From Gelidibacter salicanalis (lineage in GTDB: Bacteria > Bacteroidota > Bacteroidia > Flavobacteriales > Flavobacteriaceae), in contig NZ_VORX01000010.1 in NCBI RefSeq assembly GCF_007997285.1, positions 1-64,000 of the forward strand: 64,000 nt of DNA. Reading direction: 5' to 3'. Under the pieces are notes generated by a model. It did no database searches, was not told the origin of the DNA, and saw nothing but the letters and a program-made list of their open reading frames with translations. Of this stretch, positions 10,783 through 28,483 are shown piece after piece (positions within the stretch are counted from its first letter, which is position 1; each line of letters opens with the position of its first letter). The position numbers and the translations under genes are program-made.

Positions 10783-11811
10783 ATGAAATTTACAGCATTA
10801 CAAATAGCAGAAATTTTAGATGGCGATATCGTGGGCAATCCGGATGTCGAGGTCTCTAAACTTTCAAAGATAGAGGAAGGTACGGAAGGTTCGTTGACGT
10901 TTTTAGCCAATCCCAAGTACAAACCCTATATCTATTCTACAAAAGCGTCTATCACCATTGTAAGTAAAACTTTTGAAGCGGAAAGCGTCATAAGTACAAC
11001 GCTTATTAAGGTAGAAGACGCTTACAAATCCTTTTCGAAACTTTTAGAATATTACAATCAAGCAAAACTGAATAAGTTTGGTATTGAGCAACCATCCTAT
11101 GTTGCTGAAACGGTTACTTATGGTGATGATGTATACATTGGTGCATTCACCTATATAGGCGAAAATGTAAAAATTGGAAATAATGTAAAAATTTTCCCCA
11201 ACTCTTTTATCGGCGACAACGTTAAAATTGGGGATCATACGGTAGTATTTGCCGGCGCAAGAATATATTATGATTGTGTTATTGGCAAAAATTGTGTTAT
11301 TAATTCCGGGGTCATCCTTGGTGCCGATGGGTTTGGTTTTGCACCGGATGACAAAGGCGAATATTCTAAAGTACCTCAAACAGGGAACGTTATATTAGAA
11401 GATTTTGTTGATGTTGGAGCGGCCACTACCATTGATCGCGCCACCTTAGGCTCTACAATTATCCGAAGAGGGGTTAAATTGGACAATCAAATACAGATTG
11501 CCCACAATGTTGAAATTGGCAAAAACACGGTCATTGCTGCTCAAACCGGCGTTGCGGGATCTACTAAAATTGGCGAAAATTGTATTATTGGGGGTCAAGT
11601 TGGGATTGCGGGACATATTGCTATAGGTAATAATGTAAAAATACAAGCGCAATCTGGAGTCGGCAGAAATGTGAAGGATAATGAAGCTATTCAAGGGTCT
11701 CCAGCATTTGGGTACGCGGAGTGGAATAAATCTTATGTATATTTTAAAAATTTGCCTAAAATCATGAAAGAAATAAATGATATTGATAAAAAAGTAAATG
11801 GGAATAGTTAA
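10783..11811 (+). CDS. lpxD: UDP-3-O-(3-hydroxyacyl)glucosamine N-acyltransferase LpxD
   Basis: A 342-residue trimeric hexapeptide-repeat acyltransferase. It adds the N-linked 3-hydroxyacyl chain in the third step of lipid A synthesis. The N-terminal uridine-binding domain ([23 protein letters not shown]) is followed by a long left-handed beta-helix. The catalytic His is in [11 protein letters not shown], and GVAGST and FGYAEW lie near the end. Its stop overlaps the lpxC/fabZ start by 14 nt, so the two are coupled. A second, shorter LpxD-like gene lies 3 kb downstream. Confidence 0.93.
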
Positions 11812-16207: not shown

Positions 16208-17083
16208 ATGAGCGTTTTAGTAAATAAAGATTCAAAGATAATTGTTCAAGGTTTTACAGGCAGTGAAGGGACTTTTCACGCTGAACAAATGATAGAATAC
16301 GGAACAAATGTGGTTGGTGGAGTAACACCAGGTAAAGGTGGACAAAGCCATCTAGACCGACCTGTTTTCAATACTGTTGAAGACGCAGTAAAAGAAGCCA
16401 AAGCAGATACGTCAATTATTTTTGTACCGCCAGCTTTTGCTGCAGATGCTATTATGGAGGCTGCAGATGCGGGAATTAAAGTGATCATTTGTATCACTGA
16501 AGGTATTCCAGTTGCTGATATGATTAAGGCTGCCAATTATATTAAAAATAAAGACTGTCGTTTAATCGGTCCTAACTGTCCAGGAGTTATCACTCCGGGT
16601 GAAGCTAAAGTTGGCATCATGCCAGGTTTCGTTTTCAAAAAAGGAACTGTAGGTATTGTTTCTAAATCAGGAACTTTAACCTATGAAGCGGCTGACCAAG
16701 TTGTAAAGCAAGGTCTTGGTATTACTACGGCTATCGGTATTGGTGGAGATCCAATTATTGGAACCACAACTAAAGAAGCGGTTGAATTATTGATCAACGA
16801 TCCTGAAACCGAATGTGTGGTAATGATTGGTGAAATTGGTGGACAGTTGGAAGCTGATGCTGCAAATTGGTACAAAGCTAGTGGTAGTAAAAAACCTATT
16901 ATCGGATTTATTGCTGGTGAAACTGCACCTGCAGGTCGTACAATGGGACACGCGGGAGCTATTGTTGGCGGAAGTGATGATACCGCTCAAGCTAAAAAAG
17001 AAATTATGAGAGCTTGTGGAATTCACGTTGTGAATTCTCCTGCTGAAATTGGTAAAAAAGTAGCCGAGGTTATGGCTAAATAA
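16208..17083 (+). CDS. sucD: Succinate-CoA ligase alpha subunit
   Basis: A 291-residue TCA-cycle enzyme subunit. It has the CoA-binding Rossmann start ([18 protein letters not shown]), [21 protein letters not shown] and the phosphohistidine loop GHAGAIVGG. It converts succinyl-CoA plus NDP and phosphate to succinate with the beta subunit SucC, which is not in this window. It is followed by a strong terminator, so it closes the transcription unit. Confidence 0.95.
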
Positions 17084-20114: not shown

Positions 20115-20930
20115 ATGGAAAAATTACCTAAGATCGCATTACCTGTTATTATTGGTGCAATTATTTTAATTATTATCATTGCTAAATCAGCAGTTACTGT
20201 CGATTCAGGACAAGCAGGGGTGTTGTATAAAACTTTTGGAGGTGGTGTAGTGACTGATGAACCAGCACTTGGTGAAGGATTTCACGTAGTAGCACCTTGG
20301 AACAAGGTATTTATTTACGAAGTAAGACAGCAAGAAATTTTTGAAAAGATGAGCGCTTTATCTTCAAATGGATTGGATATCAAATTGGACGCATCTATTT
20401 GGTTTCAACCTGAATATGAAAATTTAGGAAAATTACATCAAGAAAAAAGTGAAATGTATAAAGAGCGTATCTTATTGCCAGCTGTAAGATCAGCAGCAAG
20501 AAGTGTTGTTGGGCGTTACACCCCAGAGCAATTGTACTCTAGTAAAAGAGATGCTATTCAATCTGAGATTTTTGAAGAAACTAAAAATTATGTCGATGAT
20601 CAATACATTCAACTGATTGATATTTTAGTGCGCGACGTCACTTTGCCTCCAACAATTAAAGACGCAATTGAACGCAAATTAAAGCAAGAGCAAGAATCGT
20701 TAGAATATGAATTCCGATTGGTTACCGCGGCTAAAGAAGCAGAGAAAGTAATTATTGAAGCTCAAGGTAAAGCGGATGCCAACAGAATTTTGAGCGCATC
20801 CTTAACTGACAAAATTCTTCAGGATAAAGGTATTGAAGCCACCGTTAAATTATCTCAATCTACTAATAGCAAAGTTATTGTTATTGGTTCAGGAGATTCG
20901 GGATTGCCTGTAATTTTAGGTAATCAATAA
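20115..20930 (+). CDS. Prohibitin-like SPFH (Band 7) membrane protein
   Basis: A 271-residue protein with one N-terminal TM (about 7-26, VIIGAIILIIIIAKSAV). An SPFH domain follows (VDSGQAGVLYKTFGGG, EGFHVVAPW, RSVVGRYTPEQLY, LVRDVTLPPTIKDAIERKL), then a helical C-terminal coil rich in Glu, Ala and Lys. Family members form large oligomers on membranes and often regulate proteases such as FtsH. It lies 18 nt after the VWA gene, so the two are likely co-transcribed. Confidence 0.88.
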   Translation: MEKLPKIALPVIIGAIILIIIIAKSAVTVDSGQAGVLYKTFGGGVVTDEPALGEGFHVVAPWNKVFIYEVRQQEIFEKMSALSSNGLDIKLDASIWFQPEYENLGKLHQEKSEMYKERILLPAVRSAARSVVGRYTPEQLYSSKRDAIQSEIFEETKNYVDDQYIQLIDILVRDVTLPPTIKDAIERKLKQEQESLEYEFRLVTAAKEAEKVIIEAQGKADANRILSASLTDKILQDKGIEATVKLSQSTNSKVIVIGSGDSGLPVILGNQ

Positions 20931-21037
20931 AGTAAAAGCCTGATAGTGTAGGTATTGAAAATTCTTTTAAATTTTTTCATTCTATCATTAGGATTTATAA
21001 AATTTATTTTACGACATTTGTAAAACATAAGAAGAAC

Positions 21038-21085
21038 ATGAAGTTTATTCAATCACATCATCACCATCATCATATTTGCACTTAA
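21038..21085 (+). CDS. hisL: his operon leader peptide with six consecutive histidine codons
   Basis: A 15-residue frame reads MKFIQSHHHHHHICT and stops at TAA (21083-21085). An AG-rich ribosome-binding stretch (AAGAAGAA) precedes the ATG. Six His codons in a row, directly upstream of a terminator and then hisG, are the signature of a transcription-attenuation leader. When charged tRNA-His is scarce the ribosome stalls on this run. The stop codon lies inside the proposed antiterminator strand. Confidence 0.9.
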   Translation: MKFIQSHHHHHHICT

Positions 21086-21136
21086 GCGAACTGAAGATGT
21101 ATTGAATAAAGTCAACATATTTTAAAACCGTTTGAG
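21081..21136 (+). promoter_or_regulatory. Proposed antiterminator pairing of the his attenuator
   Basis: CTTAAGCG at 21081-21088, covering the leader stop codon, can pair over 8 bases (with two wobbles) with CGTTTGAG at 21129-21136. The latter is part of the left arm of the terminator. A ribosome stalled on the His codons leaves the first strand free, so the terminator cannot form. A ribosome that reaches the stop codon covers it. The pairing is read by eye and untested. Confidence 0.6.
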
Positions 21137-21155
21137 TAACTCAAGCGGTTTTTTT
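21125..21155 (+). terminator. his attenuator terminator
   Basis: AAACCGTTTGAG (21125-21136) pairs with CTCAAGCGGTTT (21140-21151), a 12-bp stem with one wobble and a 3-nt loop, followed by T's. It lies between the leader peptide and hisG. Confidence 0.88.
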
Positions 21156-21224
21156 GTTTCTATTTATTTAGAAATCTCACCAACAGGTTTACTCAGACAA
21201 CACTTAAGTTTAACTAAAAAGACA

Positions 21225-21238
21225 CCCACCTTAGTGGG
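21225..21238 (+). promoter_or_regulatory. Small hairpin just before the hisG start
   Basis: CCCAC (21225-21229) pairs with GTGGG (21234-21238) around a 4-nt loop. It ends 7 nt before the ATG at 21246, where a ribosome would bind. It could limit translation initiation of hisG; this is inference. Confidence 0.4.
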
Positions 21239-21245
21239 CACTACA

Positions 21246-22103
21246 ATGAGTAAATTAAAAATAGCAGTACAAAAATCGGGTCGTCTACACGACGATTCCA
21301 TGAAGCTCCTCAGCGATGTAGGCATTTCAATAGACAATGGTAAAGACCAATTAAAAGCGTCTGCCAAGAATTTTCCCTTGGAAGTCTTTTATCTTCGTAA
21401 TGGCGATATCCCGCAATACCTTAGAGACGGCGTGGTGGATGCAGCCATTATAGGTGAGAATATTCTAGTAGAAAAAGGCAATGATATATCCGTTGTTGAA
21501 AAATTAGGATTTTCTACCTGTAAAGTTTCTATTGCCGTACCTAAATCCTTCAAATACAAATCTTTTAAGGATTTAGAAGGTAAACGAATAGCTACATCCT
21601 ATCCCAACACCGTAAACCAATTCTTGGAGAAAAACAAGATCTCAGCTCAACTGCACATAATTAATGGCTCTGTAGAGATTGCTCCTAATATTGGGCTCGC
21701 TGATGCAATCGTCGATATAGTGTCCAGTGGAAGCACCTTGTTTAAAAACAATTTAAAGGAGGTGGAAGTGCTATTGAAGTCTGAGGCCGTATTGGCAGCA
21801 TCACCATTAATTTCCGCTTCTGATGAAGCTATATTAAAACGCTTACAATTCCGGTTTCAATCGGTTTTAAAAGGGAGACAGTCTAAATATGTCCTTTTAA
21901 ACGCTCCCAATGACAAGCTCGATAAAATCATCAGTGTCCTGCCCGGCATGCGTAGTCCAACCGTGTTGCCCTTGGCGCAAGAAGGCTGGAGCTCCATTCA
22001 TTCCGTAATTACCAAAAATGAATTTTGGGATGTCATTGATGATCTGAAAGCAAATGGGGCTGAAGGAATTTTAGTTTGTCCCATCGAAAATATGGTGGTA
22101 TAA
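21246..22103 (+). CDS. hisG: ATP phosphoribosyltransferase HisG (long form)
   Basis: A 285-residue protein of the long, self-regulated HisG type, so no HisZ is needed. It joins ATP and PRPP, the first step of histidine synthesis. It has LKIAVQKSGRLHDDSM, IIGENILVEKG, the phosphoribosyl loop in IVDIVSSGSTLFKNN and a C-terminal ACT-like histidine-binding domain ending EGILVCPIENMVV. I chose the ATG at 21246; the frame is open upstream into the attenuator, which cannot be coding. It is the first structural gene of the operon. Confidence 0.94.
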   Translation: MSKLKIAVQKSGRLHDDSMKLLSDVGISIDNGKDQLKASAKNFPLEVFYLRNGDIPQYLRDGVVDAAIIGENILVEKGNDISVVEKLGFSTCKVSIAVPKSFKYKSFKDLEGKRIATSYPNTVNQFLEKNKISAQLHIINGSVEIAPNIGLADAIVDIVSSGSTLFKNNLKEVEVLLKSEAVLAASPLISASDEAILKRLQFRFQSVLKGRQSKYVLLNAPNDKLDKIISVLPGMRSPTVLPLAQEGWSSIHSVITKNEFWDVIDDLKANGAEGILVCPIENMVV

Positions 22104-22186: not shown

Positions 22187-23473
22187 ATGAAAATTATAAA
22201 AAACCCTGATAGATCAGCTTGGGCGGATTTAATTAAAAGACCAACCCAATCCCTAGAAAGCATCGAAGAGACCGTGGTTCAGATTTTTGATGATGTCCAA
22301 AGAAATGGCGATGTGGCAGTGCAAAAGTACACCTCGCTTTTTGACGGCACAGATGCTGAGCTCACCACTGTAACCAATACAGAAATCACAAATGCAGCTC
22401 AAAAAGTTTCTGAAGATTTAAAATCAGCAATTCAAGTTGCCAAACAAAATATCGAAACTTTTCATAGTGCTCAGAAAACCGGTAAAATTGAGATAGAAAC
22501 CATGCCTGGCGTCATGTGTTGGCAAGAAAAACGTGCTATTGAAAGAATAGGTTTGTACATTCCGGGAGGAACTGCACCGCTCTTTTCAACGGTGTTAATG
22601 TTAGCAGTGCCTGCACAACTTGCGGGCTGTAAAGAGATTATTCTTTGTACGCCACCCAATAAAAATGGTGTGATTGCCAATGAAATTTTATTCGCTGCAC
22701 AATTGTGCGGAGTCACAAAAATTTATAAAGTAGGAGGGATACAAGCGATTGCAGCCATGACTTTTGGCACTGATACCATCCCGCAGGTATATAAAATTTT
22801 TGGCCCAGGAAATCAGTTTGTCACCGTAGCAAAACAATTGGCCACAAAATATGGAGTCGCGATTGATATGCCAGCAGGACCGAGTGAGTTGCTGGTTGTC
22901 GCGGATGACAGTGCAAATCCTGCTTACGTTGCCTCAGATTTGCTAAGTCAGGCTGAGCATGGTGCCGATAGTCAAGTTATTTTAGTCTCCAATTCTGAGG
23001 CCCTGCTAACAGCGGTCGAATTAGAAATCCAACAGCAATTGACCGCACTGCCAAGACAAGCTATGGCACAAAAAGCCATTGACAATTCTAAATTGATTTT
23101 AATAGGAGATGATCAAGATGCTTTAGATTTTATTAATGCTTACGGACCCGAACATTTTATTGTATGTACTCAAAACGAGATCTTTTTTTTAGAAGGTATA
23201 CGTAATGCAGGCTCTGTATTTGTTGGAAATTATACCCCAGAAAGTGCGGGAGATTATGCTTCTGGCACCAATCACACCCTGCCAACAAACGGCTACTCCA
23301 AAGCGTACTCAGGGGTTAATTTAGACAGTTTTTCTAAAAGTATGACCTTTCAAAAAATTAGCAAAGAAGGCTTAAAAACTATAGGCAAAACCATTGAACT
23401 CATGGCGGATGCCGAGGGTTTGCAAGCACATAAGAATGCGGTCTCTATCCGATTAAATGATTTGGCAAAATGA
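22187..23473 (+). CDS. hisD: Histidinol dehydrogenase HisD
   Basis: A 428-residue zinc enzyme that oxidises L-histidinol to L-histidine in two NAD-dependent steps, the end of the pathway. It has GLYIPGGTAPLFSTVLM, GPGNQFVTVAKQ, AGPSELLVVAD, SQAEHGADSQV with zinc ligands, GPEHFIV and GTNHTLPTNGYSKAYSG. Length is normal. Its stop overlaps the hisC start by 4 nt (ATGA), so the two are translationally coupled. Confidence 0.95.
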   Translation: MKIIKNPDRSAWADLIKRPTQSLESIEETVVQIFDDVQRNGDVAVQKYTSLFDGTDAELTTVTNTEITNAAQKVSEDLKSAIQVAKQNIETFHSAQKTGKIEIETMPGVMCWQEKRAIERIGLYIPGGTAPLFSTVLMLAVPAQLAGCKEIILCTPPNKNGVIANEILFAAQLCGVTKIYKVGGIQAIAAMTFGTDTIPQVYKIFGPGNQFVTVAKQLATKYGVAIDMPAGPSELLVVADDSANPAYVASDLLSQAEHGADSQVILVSNSEALLTAVELEIQQQLTALPRQAMAQKAIDNSKLILIGDDQDALDFINAYGPEHFIVCTQNEIFFLEGIRNAGSVFVGNYTPESAGDYASGTNHTLPTNGYSKAYSGVNLDSFSKSMTFQKISKEGLKTIGKTIELMADAEGLQAHKNAVSIRLNDLAK

Positions 23474-24507
23474 GCATACAACACTTAATAAGACCGACGA
23501 TACAAGCTTTAAAGCCGTATTCCTCGGCGCGAGACGAATTTAAAGGGGAAAAGGAAGATTTAATTTTCCTCGATGCCAATGAAAATCCTTTTGATAATGG
23601 CATCAATCGGTATCCAGACCCCCAACAGACCGCATTGAAATCCGTACTCTCTGAATTGAAAAATGTACCTGTCGCCAATATTTTGTTAGGCAACGGAAGT
23701 GATGAAGTTCTGGATTTGTTGATCCGGATGTTCTGTGAGCCAAATGTAGATAATATCGTTATTCTTCCGCCTACCTATGGTATGTACGAGGTGTTGGCAA
23801 ATATCAATGCAGTAAAAACCTTAAAGGTTAATTTATCAGCAGAAGAATTTCAGCCGCAAACCGCAAAGATTTTAGAAACGGCGGATGCAAATAGTAAGAT
23901 TCTTTTTTTATGCTCACCAAATAATCCTACAGGTAATAGTTTTAAAGTGTCCACAATCGAAGGTTTGTTGAACGATTTCAAAGGAATAGTGGTTATTGAT
24001 GAAGCTTATATCGATTTTTCAAGTGATAAAAGTTGGGTGTCCAGACTTCAGGAATTTCCTAATTTGGTCGTCACCCAAACCTTGTCAAAGGCATATGGCA
24101 TGGCGGGCATTCGTTTGGGAATGTGCTTTGCATCATCAGAAATAATAGCCACCTTAAACAAAATTAAACCCCCGTATAATGTCAACACCCTGACTCAAAA
24201 AAGAGCTATTGAAGGATTTAAAAATAGTAGACTTTTTGAAACCGAAATAGGCTGTTTATTAGAAGAAAGGAAAGTTTTAAGTAAAGCTTTAGAGGATGTC
24301 AATTTCGTGAAGAACATTTATCTTTCTGATGCCAATTTCATCATGATCAAAGTTGATGATGCCAATAAACGTTACCAACAATTAATTGATCATGGCATCG
24401 TAATTCGCAACAGAACGAGCCAACCACTTTGTGACAATTGTTTGCGTCTTACCGTGGGTACCACAAAAGAAAATACACATTTAATTGAAACCTTAAAGAG
24501 CTTATAA
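23470..24507 (+). CDS. hisC: Histidinol-phosphate aminotransferase HisC
   Basis: A 345-residue class I/II PLP aminotransferase converting imidazole acetol phosphate to histidinol phosphate. It has [52 protein letters not shown], the PLP Lys in [14 protein letters not shown] and the late Arg in NCLRLTVGT. Length is normal. It is in the order hisD-hisC-hisB usual for the operon. Confidence 0.95.
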
Positions 24508-24517
24508 AAACATCATC

Positions 24518-25639
24518 ATGAAGAAAAAAGTTTTATTTATAGATCGCGATGGCACTATCATTTTAGAACCCAAAGATTATCAAATTGACAGTTTTGAGAA
24601 ACTCCAGTTTTATCCTAAAGTGTTTCAGTATTTAGGGCGAATTGCGCGCGAATTAGATTATGAATTGGTCATGGTCACCAACCAAGATGGTTTGGGCACC
24701 GACTCATTTCCTGAAGACACATTTTGGCCGGTTCATAATTTTATGGTCCAAGCCTTTCAGTCGGAAGGCATCAATTTTAAAGCGCAATACATAGATCGCT
24801 CGTTTGAAGAGGACAATGCGCCCACTCGCAAACCAAGAACAGGATTGCTGCACAATTATCTGACAGAAGATTATGATTTGGAAAATTCCTTTGTTATCGG
24901 AGATCGGTTAACAGATGTTGAATTGGCCAAAAACTTGGGAGCGAAAGGGATTTATATGAATGCGCTCACGGAAAATGAACCCTCTACAGAAGAATTACGT
25001 AAGTATATTGGACTGGCTTCAACAGACTGGGAAACGATTTATAACTACTTAAAAACAGAAGATCGGACCGCGAGTTTGGAACGCAATACCAACGAGACCA
25101 AAATTGCCATCCAACTGAATTTAGATGGAACTGGTAAGAGTAGGATAGATACAGGAATTGCTTTTTTTGACCACATGTTAGATCAGATTGCGCGTCACGG
25201 TCAATTGGATTTAGATGTTAAAGTAAAAGGTGACCTTGAAGTAGATGAACACCATACAATTGAGGATACTGGCATAGCTTTGGGTGAAGTTTTCGCAAAG
25301 GCCTTAGGCAATAAATTGGGTGTTGAACGCTATGGTTTCTGTTTGCCCATGGACGACTGTTTAGCGCAAGCTGCAATTGATTTTGGCGGTCGGAATTGGT
25401 TGGTTTGGGAGGCGGAATTTAAGCGTGAAATGATTGGTAAAATGCCTACCGAAATGTTTTTCCATTTTTTTAAATCCTTAACGGATGGGGCAAAATGTAA
25501 TTTGAATATCAAGGCTGAAGGCGATAATGAACACCATAAAATTGAAGCAATTTTCAAAGCTTTTGCCAAATCAATAAAAATGGCCATTAAGCGCGATCTG
25601 GAAAAAATGATTCTGCCGTCCACCAAAGGGGTACTGTAG
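24518..25639 (+). CDS. hisB: Bifunctional histidinol-phosphatase / imidazoleglycerol-phosphate dehydratase HisB
   Basis: A 373-residue fusion. The N-terminal HAD-type phosphatase (about 1-165) has FIDRDGTII with the nucleophile Asp, VTNQDG and [13 protein letters not shown]. The C-terminal dehydratase (about 180-373) has the metal-binding repeats [10 protein letters not shown] and NEHHKIEA and the [13 protein letters not shown] motif. It carries two non-adjacent steps of histidine synthesis. The 67-nt gap before hisH is the second-largest inside the operon. Confidence 0.95.
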
Positions 25640-25706
25640 ATTAGTAAAAAAACAACAGCATGGTTATAAGAAATTTAAGCGCTAAAACGCATTTTATAAT
25701 GAATAT

Positions 25707-26288
25707 ATGAAGGTAGTTATCATAGATTATGGTGCGGGAAATACCAAAAGCGTTCAATTTGCTTGTAATCGGTTAGGATTCGAACCGCTATTAAGCAAAG
25801 ATCCAGAGGTCATTACAGCAGCGGATAAGGTGATTTTTCCTGGGGTCGGGCAAGCGCGTAATGCGATGAATATGCTCAAAACTTCAGGATTGGACAACCT
25901 TATTCCGCAGCTTAAACAACCTGTACTTGGCATTTGTTTGGGAATGCAATTGTTGTGTCGCAGTACAGAAGAAGGGAATACCAAAGGTCTTGGCGTGTTT
26001 AATGTAGAGGTCAAGCGTTTTTCTAATACCGTCAAAGTGCCCCAAATGGGCTGGAACACCATCCTCAATTTGGAATCCAATCTTTTTGAAGGCATAAAAA
26101 ATGAAGCTTATATGTACCTTGTGCACAGTTATTATGCTGAGCTTTGCGAGCATACAATTGCCCAGACGGATTACGACTTAAAATACAGTTCTGCGCTCAG
26201 AAAAGATAATTTTTATGGGGTGCAATTCCACCCCGAAAAAAGTAGTACTGAAGGCGCGCAGATATTGAAGAATTTTTTAAAATTATAA
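25707..26288 (+). CDS. hisH: Imidazole glycerol phosphate synthase glutaminase subunit HisH
   Basis: A 193-residue class I glutamine amidotransferase. The nucleophile Cys is in [10 protein letters not shown], and the His and Glu of the triad are in VQFHPEKSS. The oxyanion region [10 protein letters not shown] is intact. It supplies ammonia to HisF. One nucleotide separates its stop from the hisA start. Confidence 0.95.
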
Positions 26289-26289
26289 C

Positions 26290-27024
26290 ATGAGAATAAT
26301 ACCAGCAATAGATATTATAGACGGAAAATGCGTGCGTTTAACCAAAGGCGATTATAACACTAAAAAAATATACAATGAAAATCCGCTAGAAGTCGCTAAG
26401 CAATTTGAAGCTTCAGGTATTGAATATCTGCATTTGGTCGATTTGGACGGTGCAAAGGCCCAGCATATTGTCAATTACAAGGTTTTGGAGCAAATTGCTT
26501 CTAAAACTGGTTTAAAAATCGATTTTGGTGGTGGACTTAAATCGAATGAAGATTTGCATATTGCTTTTAATTCTGGCGCCAAACAGGTTACTGGAGGAAG
26601 TATTGCGGTGAATGACCATCGGACCTTCGAGTCCTGGTTAGCGCAATATGGCTCGGCTAAAATTATTTTAGGAGCAGATTGTAACAACGGAAAAATCGCA
26701 ATTAGCGGATGGCAGGAGGAAAGCAGTCTAGATGTGATTCCTTTCATTAAAAATTACCAACGCCGGAAAGTGCAATACGTCATCTGTACGGATATTGCAA
26801 AAGATGGCATGCTAGAAGGCCCGTCCTTTGATTTGTACAAGAATATTATCGAAGAATGTTCTAATAGCAGTTCTGGTCAATCTATAAAATTAATTGCTTC
26901 TGGGGGGATTTCGCATATTGATGAACTTCCAAAACTTCAGCAAATGGGCTGCGAAGGTGTGATTATCGGAAAGGCTATTTATGAAAACAAGATAAGCCTT
27001 CAGGAATTGGAGCAATTCTTATAA
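26290..27024 (+). CDS. hisA: Phosphoribosylformimino-AICAR isomerase HisA
   Basis: A 244-residue (beta/alpha)8 barrel that isomerises ProFAR to PRFAR. It has the first catalytic Asp in [15 protein letters not shown] and GDY in the early loop. [11 protein letters not shown] and [11 protein letters not shown] are the two phosphate-binding half-barrel motifs, and [13 protein letters not shown] holds the second catalytic Asp. HisF follows 14 nt later with the same half-barrel logic. Confidence 0.95.
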
Positions 27025-27038
27025 AATGTAACTAACAG

Positions 27039-27794
27039 ATGCTTACAAAACGAATCATTCCGTGTTTGGATATTAAAAACGGTCGTACCGTTAAAGGGGT
27101 TAATTTTATCAACCTAATTGATGCTGGAGATCCTGTGGTTTTAGCGAAACAATATGCTGAAAAAGGTGCAGATGAACTTGTGTTTTTAGATATTTCAGCC
27201 ACTTTAGAGGGGCGAAAAACGACTTTAGATATGGTATTAAAAGTTGCCGAACAAGTAAATATTCCCTTTACGGTGGGCGGCGGAATCGCATCAGTGGAAG
27301 ATGTAGATGTGCTTTTAAGATCTGGTGCTGATAAAGTTTCCATCAACTCTTCAGCCATTAAACGTCCAGCGTTAATTAATGAATTGTCCAGCAAATTTGG
27401 CAGCCAATGTGTTGTCGTTGCCATTGATGCCAAGCAAATTGACGGCCAATGGATCGTGCACTTGGCAGGTGGCAGCGTGCCAGCCCAACTAAATCTTTTT
27501 GATTGGGCAAAAGAAGTAGAGGCAAGAGGCGCGGGAGAGCTCTTATTTACTTCCATGGACCATGATGGTACTAAAGATGGATTTGCCAATACAGCCTTGT
27601 CAAGATTGTCATCTGAATTGAACATCCCGATTATTGCTTCGGGAGGTGCCGGAACCATACAGCATTTTGTAGATACCTTTCTAATAGGAAAAGCCGATGC
27701 GGCGCTGGCGGCAAGTGTGTTTCATTTTGGTGAGATAGAAATTAAAGATTTAAAAGAAAATTTAAAGCGCAATCAAATTGAAGTGCGACTTTAG
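27039..27794 (+). CDS. hisF: Imidazole glycerol phosphate synthase cyclase subunit HisF
   Basis: A 251-residue barrel that uses ammonia from HisH to make imidazole glycerol phosphate and AICAR. It has [19 protein letters not shown] with the catalytic Asp, [30 protein letters not shown] with the second catalytic Asp, and [11 protein letters not shown]. Length is normal. A 92-nt gap, the longest among the structural genes, separates it from hisIE. Confidence 0.95.
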
Positions 27795-27886
27795 AAGATG
27801 TCCATATGATACACATTTTTAAGAATCTGTCATTTGAAATTAGTATGAATTAGAGAAAAGAATGGCTTAATAAAATACAGAAAACA

Positions 27887-28483
27887 ATGAATTTAAAATT
27901 TAATACTGAAGGATTAATTCCCGCCATCATTCAAGATGCTACGACCAAAAATGTATTGATGCTGGGTTATATGAATGCTGATTCGTTTAAAATAACCCAA
28001 GACCTGAAAAAAGTCACATTTTATAGTAGAAGCAAAGGGCGGTTATGGACTAAAGGTGAAGAAAGTGGAAATTTTCTAAACGTGGTAGACATCAAGTTAG
28101 ATTGTGATCAAGATACCTTGTTGATTCAGGCGCACCCCGAAGGTCCCACGTGTCATAAAGGCTCAGACACCTGTTGGGATGAGCGTAATAGTCCTAATTT
28201 CGGATTTATTTCGCATTTGGAAAATACCATAGAAGAACGTCGCAGTAACGCTACACCTGAAGAATCATACGTAGCATCATTGTTTGCTAAAGGCATTAAT
28301 AAATTAGCTCAAAAAGTAGGTGAAGAGGCGGTAGAGGTGGTGATTGAAGCCAAAGATTCTAATGATACCCTGTTTTTAAATGAAAGTGCGGACTTGCTAT
28401 TTCATTACCTCATGTTGCTCCAGGCTAAAGGCTTTAGATTGGAAGATATCGAGAGCGTGCTCAAAAATCGGGAGAAAAAATAA
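27887..28483 (+). CDS. hisIE: Bifunctional phosphoribosyl-AMP cyclohydrolase / phosphoribosyl-ATP pyrophosphatase HisIE
   Basis: A 198-residue fusion. The HisI part (about 1-105) has FYSRSKGRLWTKGEESGN, the metal site DCDQDT and the zinc cysteines in GPTCHKGSDTCW. The HisE part (about 110-198) is helical with KVGEEAVEVVIEAKD. Together they carry the second and third steps of the pathway. Its TAA is directly followed by the ATG of the next gene, with no gap. Confidence 0.95.
   Translation: MNLKFNTEGLIPAIIQDATTKNVLMLGYMNADSFKITQDLKKVTFYSRSKGRLWTKGEESGNFLNVVDIKLDCDQDTLLIQAHPEGPTCHKGSDTCWDERNSPNFGFISHLENTIEERRSNATPEESYVASLFAKGINKLAQKVGEEAVEVVIEAKDSNDTLFLNESADLLFHYLMLLQAKGFRLEDIESVLKNREKK

Follow-up and report, generated by a model that had tools for sequence, protein, structure and literature searches.

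Upstream of the his operon (hisGDCBHAFIE) of Gelidibacter salicanalis, a short element at 21038–21152 combines a histidine-rich leader open reading frame (ORF), a set of alternative RNA helices and an intrinsic terminator, and we are highly confident that it controls the operon by ribosome-mediated transcription attenuation. All positions refer to the window, which is the whole 64,000-nucleotide (nt) stretch of contig NZ_VORX01000010.1 that was analysed. The first operon gene, hisG (21246–22103, + strand), matched TIGR00070 with 187.5 bits, at a cut-off of 75.75, and is followed on the same strand by hisD, hisC, hisB, hisH, hisA, hisF and hisIE (22187–28483), which were identified by their NCBIfam matches. 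All eight genes exceed the cut-off of their best NCBIfam family. A Band 7 (SPFH) gene is located upstream of the leader, on the same strand.

The leader ORF (MKFIQSHHHHHHICT) extends on the + strand from the ATG at 21038 to the TAA at 21083–21085, with the codons ATG AAG TTT ATT CAA TCA CAT CAT CAC CAT CAT CAT ATT TGC ACT TAA. It encodes 15 residues and carries six consecutive His codons, the regulatory codons, at 21056–21073 (+ strand), which confirms the frame with six His codons in a row described in the initial annotation of this DNA. Against an expectation of 0.07 from shuffles of the window, the string CAYCAYCAYCAY was observed four times; three of these matches overlap inside the leader His run, while the fourth is at 11120 on the opposite strand.

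The only terminator-like site found on the + strand upstream of hisG, in a scan of 20500–21600, is the hairpin at 21124–21152. Its arms (21124–21136 and 21140–21152) form 13 pairs around a 3-nt loop and are followed by a T tract at 21153–21159, interrupted by one G. The initial annotation had likewise seen a terminator here, giving it 12 pairs and placing it directly before hisG; the scan gives one pair more, and although the hairpin is indeed the next element upstream of the gene, 93 nt separate its end from the hisG ATG at 21246. A near-copy of the terminator right arm is present at 21080–21088 (+ strand), where it overlaps the leader stop codon, and it can pair with 21129–21137 as an antiterminator strand. 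Within this duplex, CTTAAGCG (21081–21088) and CGTTTGAG (21129–21136) form eight pairs, two of which are G-U.

Three further + strand helices are predicted upstream of the terminator. The protector helix P1 joins a 5′ arm within the leader ORF (segment 1, 21044–21059) to a 3′ arm at 21096–21110 (segment 2). The small hairpin P2 (21075–21079 with 21086–21090) is part of the predicted ribosome-free fold, where it sequesters the antiterminator strand, and the stem P3 (21094–21105 with 21112–21123, spanning 21094–21123) joins segment 2, which it shares with P1, to a second partner. P3 appears in the ribosome-masked fold and is predicted when P1 is open. The leader RNA as a whole (21026–21160) folds with z = −4.98 against dinucleotide shuffles, and none of 200 shuffles was equally good. 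Just ahead of hisG, at 21222–21241, we also observed a small hairpin, CCCACCTTAGTGGG, and similar ones are present in several members of the genus.

Leaders for comparison were taken from the best 80 of 563 confirmed hisG candidates and from 35 genus or family genome loci, the window's own included. Since these loci are the closest matches, the sample leans to near relatives. After removal of five duplicates from the 115 loci, 110 were left, one of which (L109) has no upstream sequence, and the remaining 109 leaders include four identical pairs. There are thus 105 distinct sequences, with the window among them, and covariation counts take identical rows once. Among the named genomes listed, Gelidibacter salicanalis gave the best HisG match (96%), and a genus-mate of the window (G001, L005) is identical in its upstream sequence to the Gelidibacter algens locus L037, which places the window in Gelidibacter or a close ally.

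Every one of the 109 hisG loci with upstream sequence (105 distinct) has both the leader and the terminator, the leader being in each case a homologous, ATG-started open ORF. Absence of the His run and the terminator from relatives had been named beforehand as an observation that would speak against attenuation; both are present in 109 of 109. The peptide follows roughly the pattern M-x-F-I-Q-x-H(3-6)...Q-A-x, and its frame is open throughout despite one codon fewer in 39 of the 109 leaders. The longest His run is six in 14 leaders, four in 52, three in 41 and two in 2, and the stop codon is TGA in 92, TAA in 11 and TAG in 6.

The position of the stop codon sets the window apart. The T at 21083 that creates it was found only here and in Formosa maritima (L039), i.e. 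in 2 of 109 leaders or 2 of 105 distinct sequences; the 107 others have a C, which makes a sense codon, and their stop is 9 nt later. The proposal in the initial annotation that the antiterminator strand includes the leader stop therefore describes the window correctly but is not a general rule. The antiterminator duplex of the window is weaker (−10.7 kcal/mol) than those of the nine other listed genus members (−12.9 to −14.9 kcal/mol), and its terminator hairpin is slightly stronger (−15.8 versus −14.6 to −15.5 kcal/mol), which may indicate a shift towards termination. Among all 109 leaders the window is not extreme, ranking 33 for a weak antiterminator and 69 for a strong terminator.

Upstream of the leader ATG, the same 109 sequences suggest a likely promoter. 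Bacteroidota-type promoter elements are TTG and TAnnTTTG. With the leader ATG as the reference point of the alignment, T/G positions are conserved at about −50 to −46 and −21 to −18; the exact TAnnTTTG string is rare in this block and occurs once, at −26. In the window, the conserved block would correspond to TTAGG (20988–20992) and GACATTTG (21013–21020), a putative + strand promoter spanning 20988–21020.

Taken jointly, P1, P2 and the terminator show covariation. Together they have 95.2% of cells paired in the 105 distinct rows, with two-sided changes at 7 of 27 pairs against 3.7 in shuffles, and only 2 of 500 shuffles reach 7. Counted by cells, there are 96 two-sided changes against 30.1 in shuffles, the bulk of which come from two pairs, the outer pair of P2 (C-G 54, U-A 40, U-G 11) and one terminator pair (C-G 67, A-U 38), and the changes at these two pairs may reflect few inherited events. 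In P1, 93.9% of cells are paired over the 10 core pairs formed with 21101–21110, four of which show two-sided changes; of the outer ACATC-GATGT pairs, the last is standard in just 43 of 109 leaders. The terminator has 99.4% of cells paired over 12 pairs, and P2 is the weakest of the three at 87.4%.

The terminator left arm CCGTTTGA (21128–21135) is the same in all 109 leaders, and its partner in the terminator is variable (CAAGCGG, CAAACGG, CAGATGG and others). The six core pairs of the antiterminator (alignment columns 59–64 with 118–123) are formed in each of the 105 distinct rows. P3 has 93.0% of cells paired over 8 counted pairs, and sliding the partner lowers this to at most 55.2%; it has no two-sided changes, and one of its pairs is non-standard in 37 of 105. 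Support for the antiterminator and P3 is thus invariance together with folding. The columns suggest that the left arm is invariant, and the antiterminator free of covariation, because a strand bound to two pairing partners cannot change in step with either of them. The element is an example of one RNA strand kept invariant, apparently through its need for two pairing partners.

To model the switch, the window RNA was cut at the terminator left arm and folded with the ribosome-covered nucleotides blocked, under the assumption that the footprint begins 13 nt upstream of the first P-site nucleotide and extends to 15 nt downstream of it. In the ribosome-free RNA, P1 and P2 dominate (0.95 and 0.91) and the antiterminator is almost absent (0.04). 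With the A site on His1 to His4, the antiterminator reaches 1.00, together with P3; it is 0.99 at His5, 0.53 at His6 and 0.00 at the stop. The same calculation gave an antiterminator above 0.5 in 109 of 109 leaders at each of His1, His2 and His3, and in none at the stop. In the nine leaders tested against shuffles, left-arm pairing at His1 was matched by 0–2 of 60 shuffles each. By folding alone, the antiterminator is exclusive with the terminator and is favoured by a ribosome on the His codons. The simple two-state switch of the initial annotation holds as far as the alternative pairing goes, but a single alternative is too few, as P1, P2 and P3 are also present in the predicted folds.

From these parts, their conservation, the joint covariation of P1, P2 and the terminator and the predicted folding switch, all obtained directly, we infer translation of the leader, stalling of the ribosome and termination in the cell. 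RNA polymerase would start slightly upstream of the leader, and a ribosome would load on the leader ORF at once. When charged tRNA-His is plentiful, this ribosome would reach the leader stop and cover the antiterminator strand (21080–21088), leaving the terminator arms to pair, and transcription would end in the T tract. If no ribosome is present, P1 would enclose the antiterminator strand in its loop and P2 would tie the strand up, so that in this species the terminator would again form. When charged tRNA-His is scarce, the ribosome would stall at the first His codons and cover segment 1, P1 would open, segment 2 would re-pair as P3, and the antiterminator strand would take the terminator left arm, allowing read-through into hisG. 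The predicted outcome is that the attenuator very probably halts transcription when histidine is plentiful. A classical attenuator of this kind, with His codons, an antiterminator and a terminator, is what the initial annotation had proposed, and conservation, covariation and ribosome-masked folding support it.

Several observations weigh against this interpretation. Neither the antiterminator nor P3 shows covariation beyond shuffles among the 105 distinct rows, and one inner P2 pair is non-standard in 37 of these. The zero antiterminator at the stop arises largely because the mask itself covers the strand. The combination of P1 and P2 as a protector or pause hairpin carries two-sided changes and dominates in the window RNA, yet 20 of the 109 leaders favour the antiterminator when ribosome-free, with values below 0.1 in 62; the default state therefore differs among leaders. 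In the full-length RNA the terminator is dominant in every computed state (0.92–0.97), so that, as in known attenuators, the decision would have to fall after the polymerase has transcribed the left arm and before it completes the right one. Lastly, as counted by eye, 11 of 212 hisG-positive genomes of the family gave no match at E ≤ 1e-5 to the covariance model described below; in L193, the one of the 11 that was inspected, a terminator is present and the His run is shorter.

The covariance model, R1, was built from the alignment of the 109 leaders (A2). Of the 249 family genomes, 227 have a match with E ≤ 0.01 and 203 one with E ≤ 1e-5. At the stricter threshold, it separates the family genomes with hisG from those without, matching 201 of 212 and 2 of 37, respectively, as counted by eye from the R1 and hisG searches. 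Matches with E from 1e-5 to 0.01 were not counted as leaders because 17 of these 24 are in hisG-negative genomes (by eye). Of the two hisG-negative matches at the stricter threshold, L133 (G034:C11:14393-14521, − strand) has a leader and terminator before a short, truncated hisG start; this start is fused to the end of another reading frame, perhaps hisIE, as if the operon had been deleted internally. The other, L134 (G123), was rejected as a plain terminator without a His leader. In the genome of G. salicanalis itself, the window locus scored E = 1.1e-25 and the next match 0.008 (L117), with 15 weaker ones below; L117 was rejected as a second leader since it is an ordinary gene-end terminator. 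One genome, G145, has two full-length matches (G145:C81:9267-9402 and G145:C126:23065-23200, E about 8e-27 each), which may be a second leader copy or a mixed assembly.

Beyond the family, 158 genomes of the phylum were searched for hisG (138 matched), and 60 upstream regions from 27 families, chosen for family coverage, were examined for His-rich ORFs, defined by at least 4 His within 8 residues. Such an ORF was found upstream of hisG in 32 of the 60 regions and 12 of the 27 families, compared with 1 of 60 on the opposite strand. All 32 cases are within the 42 regions with closer HisG (E ≤ 8.7e-69), against none of the 18 with distant HisG. The terminator rule used here recognised a terminator downstream of the His-rich ORF in 21 of the 32 regions; placing the ribosome at the first His instead of at the stop increased upstream pairing of the left arm in 19 of these 21. 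Compared with shuffled middle stretches, the mean was 0.64 versus 0.35, and only 10 of 21 were clear at the 5% level; an antiterminator in distant families is therefore likely rather than established case by case. The His-rich ORFs of two families, f3 (L156, L160, L161, L163) and f21 (L167, L169, L171, L173), have no terminator by the same rule. Two f3 members have, by eye, A+T-rich hairpins before a T run, which the rule would miss, so the leaders of f3 and f21 may use another readout or have weak, A+T-rich terminators. We tentatively suggest, as a possibility we do not favour, that hisG was already under a His-codon attenuator in a common ancestor of much of the phylum, and that later divergence has made the sequences unrecognisable as related. 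On this view, f3 and f21 would be lineages that retained the His-rich leader without the strong intrinsic terminator and sense the stalled ribosome by other means.

Other explanations for the element were weighed against attenuation. The terminator might merely end the transcript of the SPFH gene, which is upstream on the same strand, with the His-rich ORF as a coincidence. An SPFH homologue is present in 102 of the 110 compared loci, and therefore synteny alone cannot separate this explanation from attenuation. On the other hand, the SPFH gene is separated from the terminator by a promoter-like block and an ORF, both of them conserved. The leader is kept in 7 of the 8 loci without an SPFH match, one of the seven (L082) being a short contig end and the eighth being L109, which lacks upstream sequence. 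Strong R1 matches also follow hisG, with the 201 of 212 and 2 of 37 genomes given above, and His-rich ORFs ahead of hisG in 12 of 27 sampled families are at odds with coincidence. We consider this origin extremely unlikely.

Slightly less improbable, though still very unlikely, is a stalled ribosome read out through hisG translation or Rho instead of the intrinsic terminator. The His-rich leaders of f3 and f21, which lack a terminator by our rule, would fit such a readout, as would the small hairpin just ahead of hisG in several genus members; what opposes it is that the terminator stem occurs throughout the 109 aligned leaders, the window's among them (99.4% of cells paired), and that the antiterminator has this stem's left arm as its conserved partner. 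It is also conceivable that the His-rich peptide itself acts, for instance in metal binding, with the RNA folds being secondary. The peptide is conserved, and six consecutive His residues could bind metal. The His run, though, is four or fewer in 95 of the 109 leaders, and the conserved FIQ and QA are encoded on paired RNA segments, with compensating partner changes opposite the FIQ arm, so we give this explanation hardly any credence. Attenuation by a translating ribosome accordingly remains our preferred interpretation.

Similar arrangements were sought elsewhere in the genome and in the window. A second attenuator candidate (L197) was observed upstream of a chorismate-binding gene on G000:C8 (158000–158755, − strand), with a leader, MYTILNHTWWWNFSKQHS, that contains three Trp codons. 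The leader stop is 88 nt before the presumed gene start, and a GGCTTGTC...GACAAGCC hairpin with a T tract lies between. In masked folding, left-arm pairing rises modestly, being 0.43 at Trp1, 0.17 at the stop and 0.11 ribosome-free. In a simple scan of the same genome, the pheA-like gene showed no Phe leader and two of the three chorismate-binding genes no leader with a Trp run; at the best HMGL-like gene, the scan gave only TTG-started ORFs rich in Leu, Ile and Val, ending 299 nt upstream. Upstream of the pheA-like gene (L195; G000:C21, before 149760), repeat units of about 110 nt were noticed, each with a GTGAAACGTTCATTTTAT-like stretch and a CCCGC/GCGGG hairpin. Within the window, 14 ORFs combine a residue run with a terminator, the his leader included; the one at 20955 uses the same terminator as the his leader. 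Judged from the sequence, the ORF at 1522 was rejected as lying inside another ORF and that at 16911 as seemingly preceding a gene end.

Ribosome-mediated attenuation requires a ribosome that closely trails the polymerase. To our knowledge, transcription-translation coupling in this sense has been little tested in Bacteroidota. If the attenuator is as widespread as the leaders suggest, its spread would imply that the leading ribosome is close enough to RNA polymerase for this type of control in the phylum, and the his switch would offer a direct reporter for ribosome-polymerase coupling in Bacteroidota.

In open-access literature, the element is hardly described for flavobacterial relatives. 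A structured 5′ element upstream of hisG was reported in Flavobacterium psychrophilum (PMC9723704), and it is very probably the same element; the passages of that report consulted here contain no hisG leader sequence or structure. In a his-gene study of the Bacteroidota superphylum, attenuation is mentioned once in the text available, for S. enterica and E. coli (PMC8305728). A 2022 study named his-gene attenuators in Proteobacteria and in three Firmicutes lineages (PMC9413887). The Firmicutes attenuators resemble the element described here in their three to five consecutive His codons, in their terminator and antiterminator and in their occurrence outside Proteobacteria; they differ in belonging to another phylum, and the string 'bacteroid' is absent from the main text of that study.

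No Rfam family reached its gathering score in the window, the T-box family included, and none of the 17 matches up to E = 10 at the locus was to T-box; likewise, no gathering match to RF00514 (His_leader) was found in the 12 relatives tested. RF00514 is nevertheless the best-scoring family on the 501-nt stretch examined, matching over its full model length with 29.5 bits (E = 0.007), below its gathering score of 49, and the CAU repeats together with the terminator may account for the resemblance. The enterobacterial his leader that this family represents also has a short ORF with a His run, alternative hairpins and an intrinsic terminator before hisG, and in the RF00514 alignment a downstream strand containing AUG is the pairing partner of the His codons, as it is in the flavobacterial leader. 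The two differ in that the flavobacterial antiterminator consists of the strand at the end of the leader ORF together with P3, and in that the protector helix encloses this strand. The mechanism is thus a classical one for which a brief precedent exists, and what is added here is its anatomy, the R1 model and its distribution, which together provide a worked and testable description of an element that, in the literature examined, is otherwise just mentioned for Flavobacteriaceae.
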